DNA from: Kovacikia minuta CCNUW1
GTDB taxonomy: Bacteria; Cyanobacteriota; Cyanobacteriia; Leptolyngbyales; Leptolyngbyaceae
DNA length: 64,000 bases
Assembly: GCF_020091585.1 (NCBI RefSeq)
Contig: NZ_CP083582.1
Coordinates: 7,140,536-7,204,535, forward strand
Direction: 5' to 3'
Shown here: positions 31,958 through 47,273 of the stretch, one piece after another
How the letters are laid out: the number at the start of each line of letters is the position of its first letter
How positions within the stretch are numbered: the first letter of the stretch is position 1
The notes under the pieces: model-generated
Database searches by the model: none
What the model was told of the DNA's origin: nothing
What the model saw: the letters and a program-made list of their open reading frames with translations, nothing else
Translations under genes and position numbers: made by a program

Positions 31958-32147
31958 GCTACCGTGTACACACAAGTCGGAAATCTGTGAACACAAGTCC
32001 TGAAACCCTTGCTCTGCCTCAACTTTGGAAATTGGCTGAAATCTCAATAATCTCGGCTTATTGAGAACCGGCAACGAGAAATCAAGGTTGTGGAGGATCA
32101 GGTTTTCGGAAAACGAATCAGCGATCGACTTGTGTGTACACCGTAGC
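31958..32147. mobile_element. 190-bp MITE, copy 1
   Basis: Terminal inverted repeats of 22 bp, GCTACCGTGTACACACAAGT.. and its counterpart with one mismatch, flanked by a 9-bp direct repeat CTTTTTAAG (31949-31957 and 32148-32156). No transposase is encoded. It is identical as far as I can read to 42627-42816 in inverted orientation. It sits in the 547-bp gap 31671-32217, among AGGGGGA-rich sequence and no gene. Confidence 0.9.
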
Positions 32148-41662: not shown

Positions 41663-42556
41663 ATGAACTCTGAACAACAACCCCACCGTCAAGATCTCGT
41701 TTTAGGAGGTGAGCAACCTCCGCCGACTGCGGGTGCAGTGCTGGGAGGCATTGCCGGACTGAATCAGCGGTTTGAGCAAGGTGATGTGACCCAAAAACTG
41801 GCAACGCTGGTACAAGCCGCAAAGCATAACGATGGTTTAAATTTGCTGTATCGAGCGCTAGAGCATGAAGATTTGCTCATTCGTGCAGAAGCCTACGTGC
41901 AGCTAAAGGCGATCGCCTCCGCATCTTTTGTTCCAGCCTCGTTCGTTTCATCCCCTACTTTAAATCGTGGAATTCCGCTGAGAGTGAGCGATCGTATTTA
42001 CGCTGTGTATCGATCGTCTGTTTACTATGGAGATTATTTGTATTATATCAATGCTGAAATTGATGAGTGGTATCACAAAGACTACCCGTTCTATCACACC
42101 AGAAACACTGCTGGAGACAAATTTATATACGTCTCTGAGACAACTCAAACCAGATATGAAGCACCCAGTCTGATTGCCTACTTGTTTGACCGAAAAGCAG
42201 CGGACGCTAGAGCCAAAACAGTTTATCTGGAAGGGTTCGGGCAATTCAATTGTAATATCTGTGAGATTTGTCCAGATGATGAGTCAGAAGAGTCTGATCT
42301 GAACGATGAGCCGGAAGAATTCGATCTGAATGCTTGGGTAGCCACGAATGAGATTTTTGTTGAAGATGTATTGAAGGATTGGGAAGACTCAGACTGGACG
42401 TATCAAGCTCGTGTACTCATTAGTCTCCACAATCAGAAACGCTTTGATTTGTTGTGTGAAATTTGGCAACCATTGCGTTATCATCCCCTTGCCTTTGTTC
42501 ATGAATATGTCATCGATCGCCCCTGCTACCTACGCTTGGCAGCCCTTGAATCCTAG
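41663..42556 (+). CDS. Array paralog 1 (LGG..PPP / FVHEY family)
   Basis: 297 aa from ATG 41663; the frame is open further up (to 41531) but that part is decayed repeat DNA. Family features: N-terminal LVLGGEQPPPTAGAVLGGIA, a helical HEAT-like unit (LLYRALEHEDLLIRAEAYVQ), the GIPLRVSDRIYAVYRSSVYY block, a divergent acidic middle (DDESEESDLNDEPEEFDLN), and the C-terminal block PLAFVHEYVIDRPCYLRL. Function is unknown to me. Members of this kind occur in other cyanobacteria, sometimes in tandem or fused to repeat domains (general recollection). First of five tandem copies, all on the same strand. Confidence 0.7.
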   Translation: MNSEQQPHRQDLVLGGEQPPPTAGAVLGGIAGLNQRFEQGDVTQKLATLVQAAKHNDGLNLLYRALEHEDLLIRAEAYVQLKAIASASFVPASFVSSPTLNRGIPLRVSDRIYAVYRSSVYYGDYLYYINAEIDEWYHKDYPFYHTRNTAGDKFIYVSETTQTRYEAPSLIAYLFDRKAADARAKTVYLEGFGQFNCNICEICPDDESEESDLNDEPEEFDLNAWVATNEIFVEDVLKDWEDSDWTYQARVLISLHNQKRFDLLCEIWQPLRYHPLAFVHEYVIDRPCYLRLAALES

Positions 42557-42559
42557 TTC

Positions 42560-42676
42560 ATGGCTCACGACTCTCAGCCCCAGCAAAATGATCTGGTTTT
42601 GGGTGGAAGTTCCCCCTTGCCCAGTAGCTACGGTGTACACACAAGTCGATCGCTGATTCGTTTTCCGAAAACCTGA
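42560..42676 (+). pseudogene. 5' fragment of array paralog 2, cut by a MITE
   Basis: ATG 42560, 3 bp after the previous stop, starts a frame MAHDSQPQQNDLVLGGSSPL.. like the N-termini of the other array members. After 22 codons it enters the MITE and stops at TGA 42674. The remainder of the gene continues after the MITE in another frame, so this is the cut-off N-terminus. Confidence 0.8.
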
Positions 42677-42816
42677 TCCTCCACAACCTTGATTTCTCGT
42701 TGCCGGTTCTCAATAAGCCGAGATTATTGAGATTTCAGCCAATTTCCAAAGTTGAGGCAGAGCAAGGGTTTCAGGACTTGTGTTCACAGATTTCCGACTT
42801 GTGTGTACACGGTAGC
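42627..42816. mobile_element. 190-bp MITE, copy 2, inserted in array paralog 2
   Basis: Ends GCTACGGTGTACACACAAGT.. and the complementary ..TTGTGTGTACACGGTAGC. Flanked by a 10-bp direct repeat TTGCCCAGTA (42617-42626 and 42817-42826), the target-site duplication. Removing MITE plus one repeat copy (200 bp) restores a continuous frame LPSSGAILGG through the site. Identical by eye to copy 1 at 31958-32147. No transposase, so moved in trans by an unidentified element. Confidence 0.92.
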
Positions 42817-43701
42817 TTGCCCAGTAGTGGGGCAATTTTGGGCGGTATGCAAGGATTGCGCCAGCGACTAGACGTTGCTTCACCTGACCAGAAAGTAGAG
42901 TTACTTCCGCAATGTCCCAACTATCGTGAGGCTGGGATTGATCTGTTAGTGGAAGCTGTGAATGATACAGAATTGATTGTTCGGGCAAAAGCTTGTCAAT
43001 TGCTGCAAGGAATCAATTCTCCAAAAGCACAACAGGCGATCGTCAATGGGTTATTGCTGAATCCGGGCGATCGAGTTTTTAATGTTTGTGAGTCTGTCAT
43101 TGGCTATAACGATTGGTGTTACGACCTTTTACAGACATACGAAGACATTGAAGATTATGGCTATCGACTAACGTTAATTTCTCAACATATTCAGCGCTCA
43201 AGTGCTGAGATGGCTGCTCGATCGCATCATCAGTGGCGATCGATTCAGGAAGATGAATGCTATTACTTGCCCCGTATTGGTTGGGATGAACCGAATAGCA
43301 TCAGAAATAACTTTGATTTAGTGAATTGGTGCAAAACTCATCAGGTTTTGATTCGCTTACCAGGAGAAAGCCGAATTGATTTTGAGCAACGGTTGAATAG
43401 AATTGGTTACTCCATTTATCAAACGCATCGGTTAGTTGAAGAACACAGGCTCATTTCGCAGGAGTTAGCCAGAGAAGAGTTTGAGGAAGGAGAACCTACT
43501 GCCCACCGTTTGGGTATCCAGAAGCCCTGGAATTTAAAACTTCGGGGGACATTAGAAGATCGGGCAATTAAATTATTGCAAGCTGGGCAGCAATACGAAT
43601 TGTTGGGGCAACTTTGGCTGGAAGCAGCGGGTCGGCTTGCCTTTGTCCATGAAGAGACTGTGACCGAGCCGACTTATGTTAAAGTGGTAGAAAATTTATA
43701 G
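42700..43701 (+). CDS. Array paralog 2, body, now opening inside the MITE
   Basis: An open frame begins at a TTG inside the MITE (42700); its first 39 residues (PVLNKPRLLRFQPI...) are MITE-encoded and the identical peptide can be read from copy 1. From SLPSSGAILGGMQGLRQRL it follows the array family: HEAT-like unit, GLLLNPGDRVFNVCESVIGYND, a longer middle, and the LAFVHEETVTEPTYVKV end. Without the original start codon, the native 5' end is lost; whether the TTG start is used, giving a MITE-fused protein, is unknown. No clear ribosome-binding site precedes it. Confidence 0.65.
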   Translation: MPVLNKPRLLRFQPISKVEAEQGFQDLCSQISDLCVHGSLPSSGAILGGMQGLRQRLDVASPDQKVELLPQCPNYREAGIDLLVEAVNDTELIVRAKACQLLQGINSPKAQQAIVNGLLLNPGDRVFNVCESVIGYNDWCYDLLQTYEDIEDYGYRLTLISQHIQRSSAEMAARSHHQWRSIQEDECYYLPRIGWDEPNSIRNNFDLVNWCKTHQVLIRLPGESRIDFEQRLNRIGYSIYQTHRLVEEHRLISQELAREEFEEGEPTAHRLGIQKPWNLKLRGTLEDRAIKLLQAGQQYELLGQLWLEAAGRLAFVHEETVTEPTYVKVVENL

Positions 43702-43713
43702 TACCATTGTATT

Positions 43714-44670
43714 ATGAATGCAAATCTTCATCCTGAAAGTACCGATGCGGTTATCGGTGGTCAAGTTCCGCCTCCTACCACCAGTGTGATTTTGGGTGGC
43801 ATGGCAGGACTGCACCAGCGTTTTGCATCTGGCAATTCTAACCAGCGGGTAGAGGTGCTTGCAGATGCGCTCAACTATGGCAGAGCGGGAGTCGATTTTC
43901 TGTTGGATGCGCTAGAGGATGCGGTTCTAGACGTTAGGGTGGCTGCGTACCAGTATTTGCAACAGGTGGTTTCTGAGCGAACCAGGCAGAAAACGGCTGA
44001 AGGAGTGCCGCAATGGTGGCAACAGTTTGAATCCACGCTGATTCCTGAGCGAGTGCAACGGACGATCGCCAAAGGAATTCCCCTCAAGCAGGGCGATCGA
44101 CTGTACAGGGTATATATTTCGGCGATCGACTACGACGATAACTATTACACCCTCTTAGATTCCGTACAGGCATATGAAGCTCACGATTTTTGCTATGACG
44201 GAGAACTGATTCATCCGGTAGAACGCTATCTTTTTCGAGAGCAAGCCGAACACGTCGCCCAAGACTTGCATCGAACGATTCTATCAAACGGCAATTTTGC
44301 TGAATTCAATCAGCGGCATCAACTTAAACTCAAACCCTCAGATTACTTCCTGTTCAAAATGGCAGAAGACTTATGTAATTTTTACCGCAACTACAGCCAA
44401 CCCATTCTCAATTGGTGTACAGCCCACGGCATTGATGTAGACCTCAGTGACTATCTTAACGAAGAAATCCCCGATGACGATGATCAGGGCGAATACTGGT
44501 GGGAAGCACAGGAGGCGGTTTTGCAGCAACTTCAAAGCCAGGGAAACTACCCACTTTTAGAGGAATTCTGCAATTTAATTGGCATGGGCAGATTTACCTT
44601 TGTGCATGAAGAAATCGTCGATCGCGATGGCTACTTCCCCGTCACGGGAACCCTTACCTCAAGAGCGTGA
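43714..44670 (+). CDS. Array paralog 3 (LGG..PPP / FVHEE family)
   Basis: 318 aa. N-terminal AVIGGQVPPPTTSVILGGMA, HEAT-like segment VDFLLDALEDAVLDVRVAAY, GIPLKQGDRLYRVYISAIDYDD, an acidic middle (LNEEIPDDDDQGEYWWE) and C-terminal FTFVHEEIVDRDGYFPV. Starts 12 bp after paralog 2 and ends 14 bp before paralog 4, so a polycistronic message is likely. Function unknown; the conserved ends and variable middle suggest a common scaffold with a diversifying recognition part. Confidence 0.75.
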   Translation: MNANLHPESTDAVIGGQVPPPTTSVILGGMAGLHQRFASGNSNQRVEVLADALNYGRAGVDFLLDALEDAVLDVRVAAYQYLQQVVSERTRQKTAEGVPQWWQQFESTLIPERVQRTIAKGIPLKQGDRLYRVYISAIDYDDNYYTLLDSVQAYEAHDFCYDGELIHPVERYLFREQAEHVAQDLHRTILSNGNFAEFNQRHQLKLKPSDYFLFKMAEDLCNFYRNYSQPILNWCTAHGIDVDLSDYLNEEIPDDDDQGEYWWEAQEAVLQQLQSQGNYPLLEEFCNLIGMGRFTFVHEEIVDRDGYFPVTGTLTSRA

Positions 44671-44684
44671 GTGGGTGAAATTAG

Positions 44685-45539
44685 ATGGCAAAACAACCCA
44701 AACAACCCCAAGCTACGGATGTCATTCTGGGTGGTCAGACTTCCCCTCCGGTCACTGGAGCCGTTCTAGGTGGGCTGGAGGGCTTACAAAAGCGATTTTT
44801 GCATCTTGATCCAAACCAAAAGCTTGAGGTGATGCCAGGTATTTTAGAACTGGGAGAACCGGGGATTGATTTACTGATCGCGGTTCTGAATGATGATGCA
44901 ATCTCTGTTCGCTACGAAGCCTATCGTTACTTGCAACAATCAGATTCCGAGACAGCAAAAAGCGCGATCGCTGCGGGCATTCCCTTAAAACCCGGTGACA
45001 CCCTTTATTGCGTCTATGAAATTCCCACTGGTTATAATGACGAAACCTACTATTTGTGTAACTCCATCCCTGAAGATATCCCTACAGCAGGAATTTACAC
45101 AGATATTGTCGAACATTCCCCTGCCGAAGAAATTGATTGGGAGTCGTTAGATCCAGAGGAGTTCGATTCGCTGATGGAAGAATGGGAAACTCCCAAGTTG
45201 GTTTCACGGCATCTATTGAGGGAAACAGCAGAGGAGATTGCAGAGTTACTCCATCAAAGGCATATTCTCGATCGCGATACTCCCAACTTGTTTGAATTTG
45301 ATTGTGTTCACACCAGTCAATTCGATGTCAATGTTTGGCGTGCTAACAACGGTTTGTCTTCCCAGCAACCGGAAACAGACTGGTGGGACATGGGAGTGCA
45401 ACTGGTGGAGGAACTCAAAACCCAACAGCAGATCGAATTACTCAGCCAACTCTGGAAAGAAACCGTAGGTCGATTAGCAGTGGTTCACGAACAACGGATT
45501 AAGCGGAATGGTTATTTCAAAGTTACCCGATCGCTTTAG
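44685..45539 (+). CDS. Array paralog 4 (LGG..PPP / FVHEE family)
   Basis: 284 aa. N-terminal DVILGGQTSPPVTGAVLGGL, LEGLQKRFLHLDPNQKLEVM, HEAT-like LLIAVLNDDAISVRYEAYRY, GIPLKPGDTLYCVYEIPTGY, acidic middle, C-terminal LAVVHEQRIKRNGYFKV (FVHEE replaced by VVHEQ). Followed by a hairpin and an inverted-repeat element before paralog 5, so paralog 5 may have its own promoter. Confidence 0.75.
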   Translation: MAKQPKQPQATDVILGGQTSPPVTGAVLGGLEGLQKRFLHLDPNQKLEVMPGILELGEPGIDLLIAVLNDDAISVRYEAYRYLQQSDSETAKSAIAAGIPLKPGDTLYCVYEIPTGYNDETYYLCNSIPEDIPTAGIYTDIVEHSPAEEIDWESLDPEEFDSLMEEWETPKLVSRHLLRETAEEIAELLHQRHILDRDTPNLFEFDCVHTSQFDVNVWRANNGLSSQQPETDWWDMGVQLVEELKTQQQIELLSQLWKETVGRLAVVHEQRIKRNGYFKVTRSL

Positions 45540-45551
45540 GCAACTCAGATC

Positions 45552-45578
45552 CCCGACTTTTTGGGGAAAGTCGGATTT
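45552..45578 (+). terminator. Possible terminator after array paralog 4
   Basis: CCGACTTT pairs with AAAGTCGG around TTGGGG, followed by ATTTTG. A short stem and weak T-run, 13 bp after the paralog 4 stop. Could reduce transcription into paralog 5. Confidence 0.45.
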
Positions 45579-45580
45579 TG

Positions 45581-45644
45581 TACGGGCGGGTTTTGCCAAG
45601 AGACTTACCCGTCGTCAGCAAATCTCGATCAAACCCGCCCCTAC
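45581..45644. repeat. Small inverted-repeat element (GGGCGGGTTT family), copy 2
   Basis: Ends TACGGGCGGGTTTTGCC and AAACCCGCCCCTAC are nearly the same as those of 11686-11746, with an unrelated centre. It sits between array paralogs 4 and 5, 41 bp before the latter's ATG. Confidence 0.75.
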
Positions 45645-45684
45645 GACCGACTTTATTTAATTCCCATCCCTAAATCACCCTTTT

Positions 45685-46485
45685 ATGAAAGAGCCACAAG
45701 CAACCGACGGAATTTTAGGTGGGCAAACTCCACCACCCATTAATAGCGCCACGTTGGGTGGTATCGAAGGACTTCAGCAACAGATGACGATCGCCCCACC
45801 CGAACAGCGATCGCAACTTCTCAGCACTGCACTGAACTATGGTGAAGCAGGCGTTGATTTAGTGATTGCTACGTTGAACAATGACCCCATTTTAACCGTT
45901 CGGGCAACGGCTTATCAATCGCTGCAATCAGTAGATTCGGAAAAGGCAAAAGCGGCGATCGCAAACGGTATTTTATTGAATCCGGGCGATCAAGTTTACG
46001 GTGTTTACAAATCAGCTATTCAATTTAATGACGAATTCTTTCGTTTAAATCCTGAACTTCAAGATCTAGATTTTATGAATGAGACCAATTGGGAAGAATT
46101 TGGATACGCAGATTACGAAAGCTTTTGTACGAGTGAAGATAACTATAACGGAGGAGAGATTGATAGTTATATTCCTAAACGCGTTGCTCACTATATTTCT
46201 AGAGAGGAAGCAGAAGCAGCGGCTGAACAGCTTCATCAGAAGTTAGTAAGCGAATGGGATTATACAGGTGATTTTGAAGAGAGAGCAGATTTTGACTTGA
46301 ATGAGTGGTGCCAAGCTAATCAGGTTTCATCTATTAGTGGATATGGCTACTTATATGACCTCAAGGTTGAACTGAAGGGAGAAGGGAACTATAAACTACT
46401 TGCAAAGCTTTGGAGGGATGCGATCGGTGACTTCGCGTTTGTGCGGGAGGAAACCGTAAGTGAGCCTCAATATTTGAAGCTTTGA
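45685..46485 (+). CDS. Array paralog 5 (LGG..PPP / FVREE family)
   Basis: 266 aa, the shortest. N-terminal DGILGGQTPPPINSATLGGI, HEAT-like DLVIATLNNDPILTVRATAY, SEKAKAAIANGILLNPGDQVYGVYKSAIQFND, acidic middle rich in Glu/Asp/Tyr, C-terminal FAFVREETVSEPQYLKL. Last of the five tandem copies; the TIM-barrel gene starts 34 bp further on. The spread of lengths (266-318 aa) comes mainly from the middle part. Confidence 0.75.
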   Translation: MKEPQATDGILGGQTPPPINSATLGGIEGLQQQMTIAPPEQRSQLLSTALNYGEAGVDLVIATLNNDPILTVRATAYQSLQSVDSEKAKAAIANGILLNPGDQVYGVYKSAIQFNDEFFRLNPELQDLDFMNETNWEEFGYADYESFCTSEDNYNGGEIDSYIPKRVAHYISREEAEAAAEQLHQKLVSEWDYTGDFEERADFDLNEWCQANQVSSISGYGYLYDLKVELKGEGNYKLLAKLWRDAIGDFAFVREETVSEPQYLKL

Positions 46486-46519: not shown

Positions 46520-47273
46520 ATGTTGGGACTGAGTATTACAGCGATCGGGATGCGATCGATTGATCAATGCCTGGACATCTTCCAAGCATTGCGAGAACCG
46601 ATGCAGTTGCAGTATTTGGAACTGGCGATCGGGAGTCCCTGTGGGGTGGAAGTTGATTATGGAGAGATTCCCCTGATTTTGCACGATGCTTGTTTGTATC
46701 AGGACAGAATGCGGCTGCGCTTGAATCCACTCCTACCCAAAACCTGGCAGACCTACGCCGCATTCATCGCGGATCATCATGTCCAAGCAGTATCACTTCA
46801 TCCGCCGTTACAGCGCGACTGTGAGCGATCGCAACTCGAAACTGCACTGGCACAGATGGAAAAAACATTGGCAGGTGCCTGTATTTCTGGAAGTTATGCC
46901 CTCCCCCGAATACTGGTGTTCCAGCTTCGATACGATTGTGAATCATCCCCTGCTGGTGGATGTGTCCCATGTGTTGATCTGGCATCGTGGCGATCCAGAA
47001 CGAACCCAGGAAACCTGTTTATCTCTGCTTAACAAGCATCCAGTGGGCGCAATTCACCTGAGCCATAATAACGGGCAGGCAGATGCCCACGATTTGATTC
47101 CAGAATCAGTCTGGTTTCGCGATCGCATCCCCCAGTGGTCAACCCAATACTTCGTCACCTACGAAAGCCTACCCACCTCCCAGGCAGCCTATGAACTCCT
47201 CGACAAACGAGCCAGACATCATACCCATTTACCGATTACGACACGAACTGTACCATCTTCCAGGGTTTCCTGA
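46520..47273 (+). CDS. TIM-barrel protein resembling the DUF692/MbnB group; frame broken at an A-run
   Basis: Two overlapping frames make one protein: the first runs from ATG 46520 to about 46860 (LGLSITAIG, LILHDACLYQ, AVSLHPPL), the second from 46866 (HWQVPVFLEVMPSPEYWC, LLVDVSHVLIWHRG, GAIHLSHNNGQADAHDLIP, YFVTYESLP) to TGA 47273. Removing one A from the six-A run at 46860-46865 joins them into ~250 aa. Conserved His, Asp, Asn and Glu at strand ends suggest a metal-binding TIM barrel like multinuclear non-heme iron oxidases (MbnB/TglH) or xylose-isomerase-like enzymes; this is a fold-level guess. It overlaps ycf35 tail-to-tail by 55 bp. Confidence 0.6.

Follow-up and report, generated by a model that had tools for sequence, protein, structure and literature searches.

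Gene 2, the second of five paralogous genes arrayed at 41663-46485 in the window (the whole 64,000-nt stretch of Kovacikia DNA analysed here, to which unprefixed coordinates refer), is interrupted by a MITE, and the locus raises the question of whether the element has broken the gene or given it a new beginning. The sequence-only reading that drew attention to it allowed for either a fresh knockout or a nascent fusion started within the element. As judged from the DNA, recent insertion of a MITE, presumably mobilised by a co-resident insertion sequence (IS), has most likely abolished the normal gene 2 protein. The case is a real, recent and ordinary gene disruption.

The non-autonomous MITE occupies 188 bp of the forward strand (42628-42815), with edges fixed by comparing all 58 copies in the host genome (8.56 Mb, three contigs). 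Two 12-bp copies of the target-site duplication, CTTGCCCAGTAG, flank it on the forward strand at 42616-42627 and 42816-42827 and agree at 12 of 12 positions. The left terminal inverted repeat, CTACGGTGTACACACAAGTCG, lies at 42628-42648 (forward strand), and the right repeat at 42795-42815 reads CTACCGTGTACACACAAGTCG on the reverse strand; over 23 nt the inverted ends are 96% complementary. The same locus had been described as a 190-bp element with a 10-bp duplication. The direct repeats and inverted ends of that description are present, and its extents, a matter of boundary choice, were replaced by 188 and 12 bp after the all-copy comparison. The base just outside CTAC...GTAG is mostly G on the left and C on the right, with other bases in some of the 58 copies; because these flanking bases vary, the conserved element is taken as 188 bp, which leaves a 12-bp duplication at this site.

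As first proposed, the insertion follows the 22nd codon of gene 2. The 5' fragment (42560-42627, forward strand) comprises 22 codons from the ATG and continues into the element, where a TGA at 42674-42676 (forward strand) terminates the frame of the original start. The 3' fragment (42828-43701, forward strand) is open to the natural stop, and the roughly 290 codons downstream of the element contain no other stop or frameshift. The net insertion, including the 12-bp duplication, is 200 bp. Joining the flanks yields a single open frame with an N-terminus that is gap-free at the junction relative to the Stenomitos and Pantanalinema orthologues, in line with the earlier statement that deleting the element restores the frame exactly. 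The TTG-initiated frame is likewise as described: it spans 42700-43701, encodes 333 residues and places 39 MITE-encoded codons ahead of the right duplication. Its TTG (42700-42702, forward strand) is located 23 nt past the TGA. The first in-frame ATG 3' of the element, an alternative restart, is at 42847-42849 (forward strand).

Pattern searches of the genome, together with fetched stretches, identify 58 copies of the MITE, all exactly 188 bp. Fifty-six are identical and two carry one difference, a total of 2 differences in 58 × 188 bp; the gene 2 copy is identical to the consensus. A search with the end pattern returned 70 + 70 matches, versus 0 for the reversed control pattern. The gene 2 insertion is far beyond chance. 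The element is short, lacks transposase coding, has 20-23 bp terminal inverted repeats, generates a target duplication and is present in 58 copies, as expected for a MITE. A second copy in the window (31959-32146, reverse strand) lies between ORFs in CCCTCCTTTTTAAGGGGAG, a palindrome of the usual kind.

Elements from other genera have the same interior as the MITE. With at most eight candidates scored per genome, a longer relative is found in genome G015 (80% identity over 132 bp) and another in G063 (72% identity), and matches spanning the whole element at >80% identity occur in its own genome only among the 97 genomes searched, own included. A search of a plasmid collection gave no match, and Rfam gave only sub-threshold matches in 42000-43500. 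The long hairpin of the gene 2 copy is strong (z -6.4 and -7.6), and 7 of its 50 predicted pairs are changed on both sides when four relatives are compared. A conserved interior RNA structure was considered and set aside, four relatives being too few sequences to claim selection.

The genome also contains 14 copies of a 1484-bp IS (two of them 1483 bp) with the same ends as the MITE. The first 22 positions of the MITE show 91% identity with the left end of the IS, and the last 22 show 95% identity with its right end. Because these ends are shared, we infer that the IS transposase moves the MITE in trans. Derivation of the MITE by internal deletion of the IS is not supported: the longest interior match between them is at most 14 bp and the interiors are unrelated. 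The full 455-residue transposase frame is intact in 11 of the 14 copies; of the others, two have a common frameshift leaving a 429-residue frame and one is degraded. The protein, encoded by a single ORF, matches NCBIfam NF033590 (IS4 family; 385 bits, the cutoff being 160) and Pfam DDE_Tnp_1 (PF01609), carries the YREK signature Y(2)R(3)E(6)K (YCWRWRIEQLFATLK), and has Tn5 transposase as its closest solved structure in the PDB (E 1.2e-37). The probable source of a datable MITE burst is still present with intact frames.

Of the 72 MITE and IS copies, 37 have target duplications of 11 bp, 29 of 10 bp, three (gene 2 included) of 12 bp and one of 9 bp; in the other two the repeats are mismatched. 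A length of 10-12 bp, seen in 69 of 72, is about one helical turn, as in the IS4 family. Both IS ends also fit the IS50-subgroup signature CW------Y---CA-A--W- in a by-eye comparison with Table 1 of PMC2266710. That subgroup has 8-9 bp direct repeats whereas those here are 10-12 bp, and we therefore call the IS IS50-like and not a subgroup member. The IS copies at C2:578689-580172 and C2:696427-697910 have non-matching flanking duplications, as expected after inter-copy recombination. The two 1483-bp copies (C1:3853847-3855329 and C1:6887982-6889464) share the transposase frame break that leaves the 429-residue frame, suggesting that an IS already carrying the frameshift may have given rise to another copy.

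The MITE and the IS both prefer pre-existing palindromes, CCCCCTTnnnAAGGGGG, as insertion sites. In reconstructed empty sites, a C-rich arm followed by a G-rich arm surrounds the duplicated bases. CC and GG lie within 4 bases of the duplication at 68 of 70 sites, versus 4.5% of window positions, and CCC and GGG arms are found at 58 of 70 versus 0.17% (these counts exclude the two IS copies whose duplications are mismatched). The exact palindrome accounts for 37 of 72 occupied sites and is found at 23 further, unoccupied genomic sites, so that 37 of 60 exact palindromes are filled. This palindrome is a host repeat: 34 of the 58 genomes searched, a set that includes Kovacikia, contain it, and copy numbers range from 0 to 218. 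Among related genomes it often occurs in closely spaced pairs, and the Kovacikia genome has several unoccupied palindromes no more than ~50 bp from an occupied one. The gene 2 site, CCCCCTTGCCCAGTAGTGGGG, is a weaker CCCC/GGGG look-alike within a Pro/Gly-coding stretch. It passes the strict arm rule, yet its target score is among the lowest of the occupied sites and is equalled at 212 of 63,344 window positions. Given this low score and these equals, target mimicry at gene 2 is plausible rather than proven.

Gene 1 of the array (41663-42556) ends 3 nt before the gene 2 ATG, and genes 3 (43714-44670), 4 (44685-45539) and 5 (45685-46485) are intact; all are on the forward strand. An array protein gives at most a sub-cutoff GUN4_N match in Pfam and nothing at E <= 0.001 in Foldseek, where the best matches are HEAT-like alphaReps and Synechocystis GUN4. 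The paralogues are putatively HEAT/ARM-like. Compared with its 84-89% identical counterpart in Lyngbya sp. HA4199-MV5 (L174:3920-4672), the gene that follows the array (MLGLSITAIG..., 46520-47273) is frameshifted around 46855-46870, possibly a second lesion of the same cluster or a sequencing error.

Uninterrupted orthologues of gene 2, in the same array order, are present in Stenomitos rutilans HA7619-LM2 (G019/L171) and Pantanalinema sp. GBBB05 (G010/L172), providing the empty site that the sequence-only reading had proposed to look for, and no carrier of the insertion was found among the relatives searched. Together with the identity of this copy to the consensus and the near-absence of differences across the family, this upholds the description of the insertion as fresh; on these comparisons it is evidently recent.

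Gene 2 had apparently been changing unusually fast before the element arrived, and its neighbours had not. We compared alignable columns in the three genomes, counting own-specific replacements where the other two genomes agree and dropping gapped columns, mostly in the variable middle, before counting. Lineage-specific replacements in gene 2 number 58 in Kovacikia, 17 in Stenomitos and 29 in Pantanalinema, an excess supported by Fisher tests (5e-6 versus Stenomitos, 6e-8 versus Pantanalinema). The corresponding counts are 22, 25 and 34 for gene 3, 20, 29 and 32 for gene 4, and 17, 19 and 62 for gene 5. Because the element has only 2 differences in all its copies, the excess would largely pre-date the insertion. 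Gene 2 shows no matching rise in synonymous differences (29, 25 and 34, respectively), so we infer the age of the excess. Instead of relaxed constraint, the excess may have arisen through diversifying selection, gene conversion or imperfect orthology. In Lyngbya sp. HA4199-MV5 (L174), gene 3 comes straight after gene 1. DNA comparison there indicates deletion of gene 2, with a 68-bp scar between the two genes (L174:1039-1106) that is 91% identical to the gene 2 3' end, an independent loss. Gene 2 looks dispensable, as it was seemingly changing fast already and was lost independently in this Lyngbya.

These observations suggest the following course of events. The IS4-family, Tn5/IS50-like transposase, acting on ends that match its own, would have mobilised the 188-bp MITE in trans, and the MITE would recently have transposed into codon 23 of gene 2, second in the putative HEAT/ARM-like array, the site having been chosen as CCCCCTTGCCCAGTAGTGGGG resembles the preferred CCCCCTTnnnAAGGGGG. 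The insertion would have been tolerated in a gene that was already fast-evolving and dispensable. The original start would then run into the TGA at 42674 with loss of the full-length protein, and little or no functional product would be expected from TTG 42700 or ATG 42847. Loss of function is likelier than a new product because the original start now reads to that stop, and knockout accordingly stands as the default for the full-length protein.

The alternative that survives best, although we consider it unlikely, is that the element has exchanged one N-terminus for another: translation would restart at TTG 42700 or ATG 42847, the core would remain functional and element-encoded residues would replace a disordered tail. 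The frame from 42700 to 43701 is indeed open, and the array may be translationally coupled, given the 3-nt spacing between the gene 1 stop and the gene 2 ATG. AlphaFold2 predicts a structure with mean pLDDT 76 in which residues 1-43 fall below 50, the leader being predicted disordered, and a confident core (pLDDT >90) begins at about residue 45, encoded wholly downstream of the element. Since the core is confident only there, a protein restarted with a different N-terminus could still fold. The insertion, however, splits an N-terminal motif shared by the paralogues, D..(V/L)LGG...PP, which is conserved in a 25-member alignment with columns G37, G38 and P41 nearly invariant. No Shine-Dalgarno-like sequence was found upstream of TTG 42700 and no sigma-70-like promoter within the MITE; the former is a weak argument because the other array starts also lack an obvious Shine-Dalgarno sequence. 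Five of the six MITE frames contain stops and the sixth is a 62-codon open frame. A selected coding frame in the element was rejected, as this frame stays open in 999 of 2000 interior shuffles, the level expected by chance, and in the related elements of G015 and G063 it is broken by stops. The earlier suggestion that the MITE supplied a new start for a nascent fusion therefore finds no support beyond the open frame itself.

Three of the 72 elements span ORFs of at least 150 residues in the reconstructed empty site, and one is clearly in frame. The ORFs affected are gene 2, a glycosyltransferase (element C1:93101-93288) and a response-regulator-like ORF, which is hit close to its end (C2:268653). 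The glycosyltransferase (C1:92596-94047; L061:4597-6048, reverse strand) is the truer in-frame element fusion: the element and its 10-bp duplication add 198 bp, or 66 codons, within an uninterrupted 484-residue frame that has Pfam glycosyltransferase domains on either side of the insertion. In a search of 39 genomes (Kovacikia and 38 relatives), seven of the relatives gave homologues at E 1e-60. Among the matches listed, their frames are shorter (397-433 residues) and without a match to the insertion, and homology ends at residue 253, where the element begins. In the response-regulator-like ORF, the MITE at C2:268653-268840 swaps the last residues for element-encoded codons. We think it quite improbable that the MITE creates proteins as well as breaking them, with the glycosyltransferase and gene 2 chimeras both expressed, functional and newly born. 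The forward frame of the element is stop-free and, together with a 10-bp duplication, contributes exactly 66 codons.

Two further explanations concern the age and reality of the lesion. Long-standing decay, in which gene 2 would already have been a pseudogene and the MITE one of several old lesions, would account for the 2- to 3-fold rise in own-lineage replacements, but it is very hard to reconcile with the otherwise intact 3' frame, the perfect 12-bp duplication and an element identical to its consensus. Such repeats are known to cause trouble in assembly, yet an assembly or sequencing artefact is scarcely credible for a short element that has unique gene 2 sequence on both flanks and recurs with a perfect duplication at 58 distinct places in a three-contig genome.

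Recent disruption by a mobilised MITE thus remains the preferred account, and the locus shows how an element of mostly harmless intergenic palindromes may spill into genes when coding sequence resembles the palindrome. It raises the hypothesis that target selectivity limits damage and that the exceptions fall on dispensable genes. A literature search of partial coverage found no work on MITEs in Leptolyngbya-like hosts. MITE gene inactivation in cyanobacteria is already documented, for example at mcy as cited in the review PMC10969869, and MITE-ORF fusions are described in PMC2759123 and PMC10969869. The present case is of value because the burst can be dated and both its probable source and its target are visible.

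Comparison with known systems places this behaviour among established types. The Rickettsia palindromic elements and enterobacterial RU elements (PMC10969869, PMC2759123) are likewise small and palindromic, with open frames in or fused to genes. Nearly half of the Rickettsia elements reside in ORFs according to the review (PMC10969869), whereas in Kovacikia the proportion is 3 of 72 in ORFs of at least 150 residues, one in frame, so that the frequent in-frame residence in protein genes typical of that group is not seen. Members of the IS50 (Tn5) subgroup of the IS4 family, as outlined in PMC2266710, share with the Kovacikia IS a YREK transposase, a length of ~1.5 kb and the end signature, and differ in their 8-9 bp repeats; the Kovacikia IS makes 10-12 bp repeats with a strong CCCC...GGGG palindrome preference. 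Use of dispersed host palindromes as insertion sites is also reported for ISRm22, an IS4-family element that targets REP sequences (PMC1525189). With this precedent, palindrome targeting here is a known kind of behaviour, although the palindrome and host phylum differ and in Kovacikia a MITE uses the sites as well. A cyanobacterial parallel is Anabaena sp. 90, for which PMC3542288 describes short, mostly intergenic MITEs (132 of 147), with 15 in disrupted ORFs that become pseudogenes. Those MITEs are described there as type II with no matching IS, whereas the Kovacikia MITE is accompanied by 14 copies of a matching IS, intact transposase frames and evident target palindromes.
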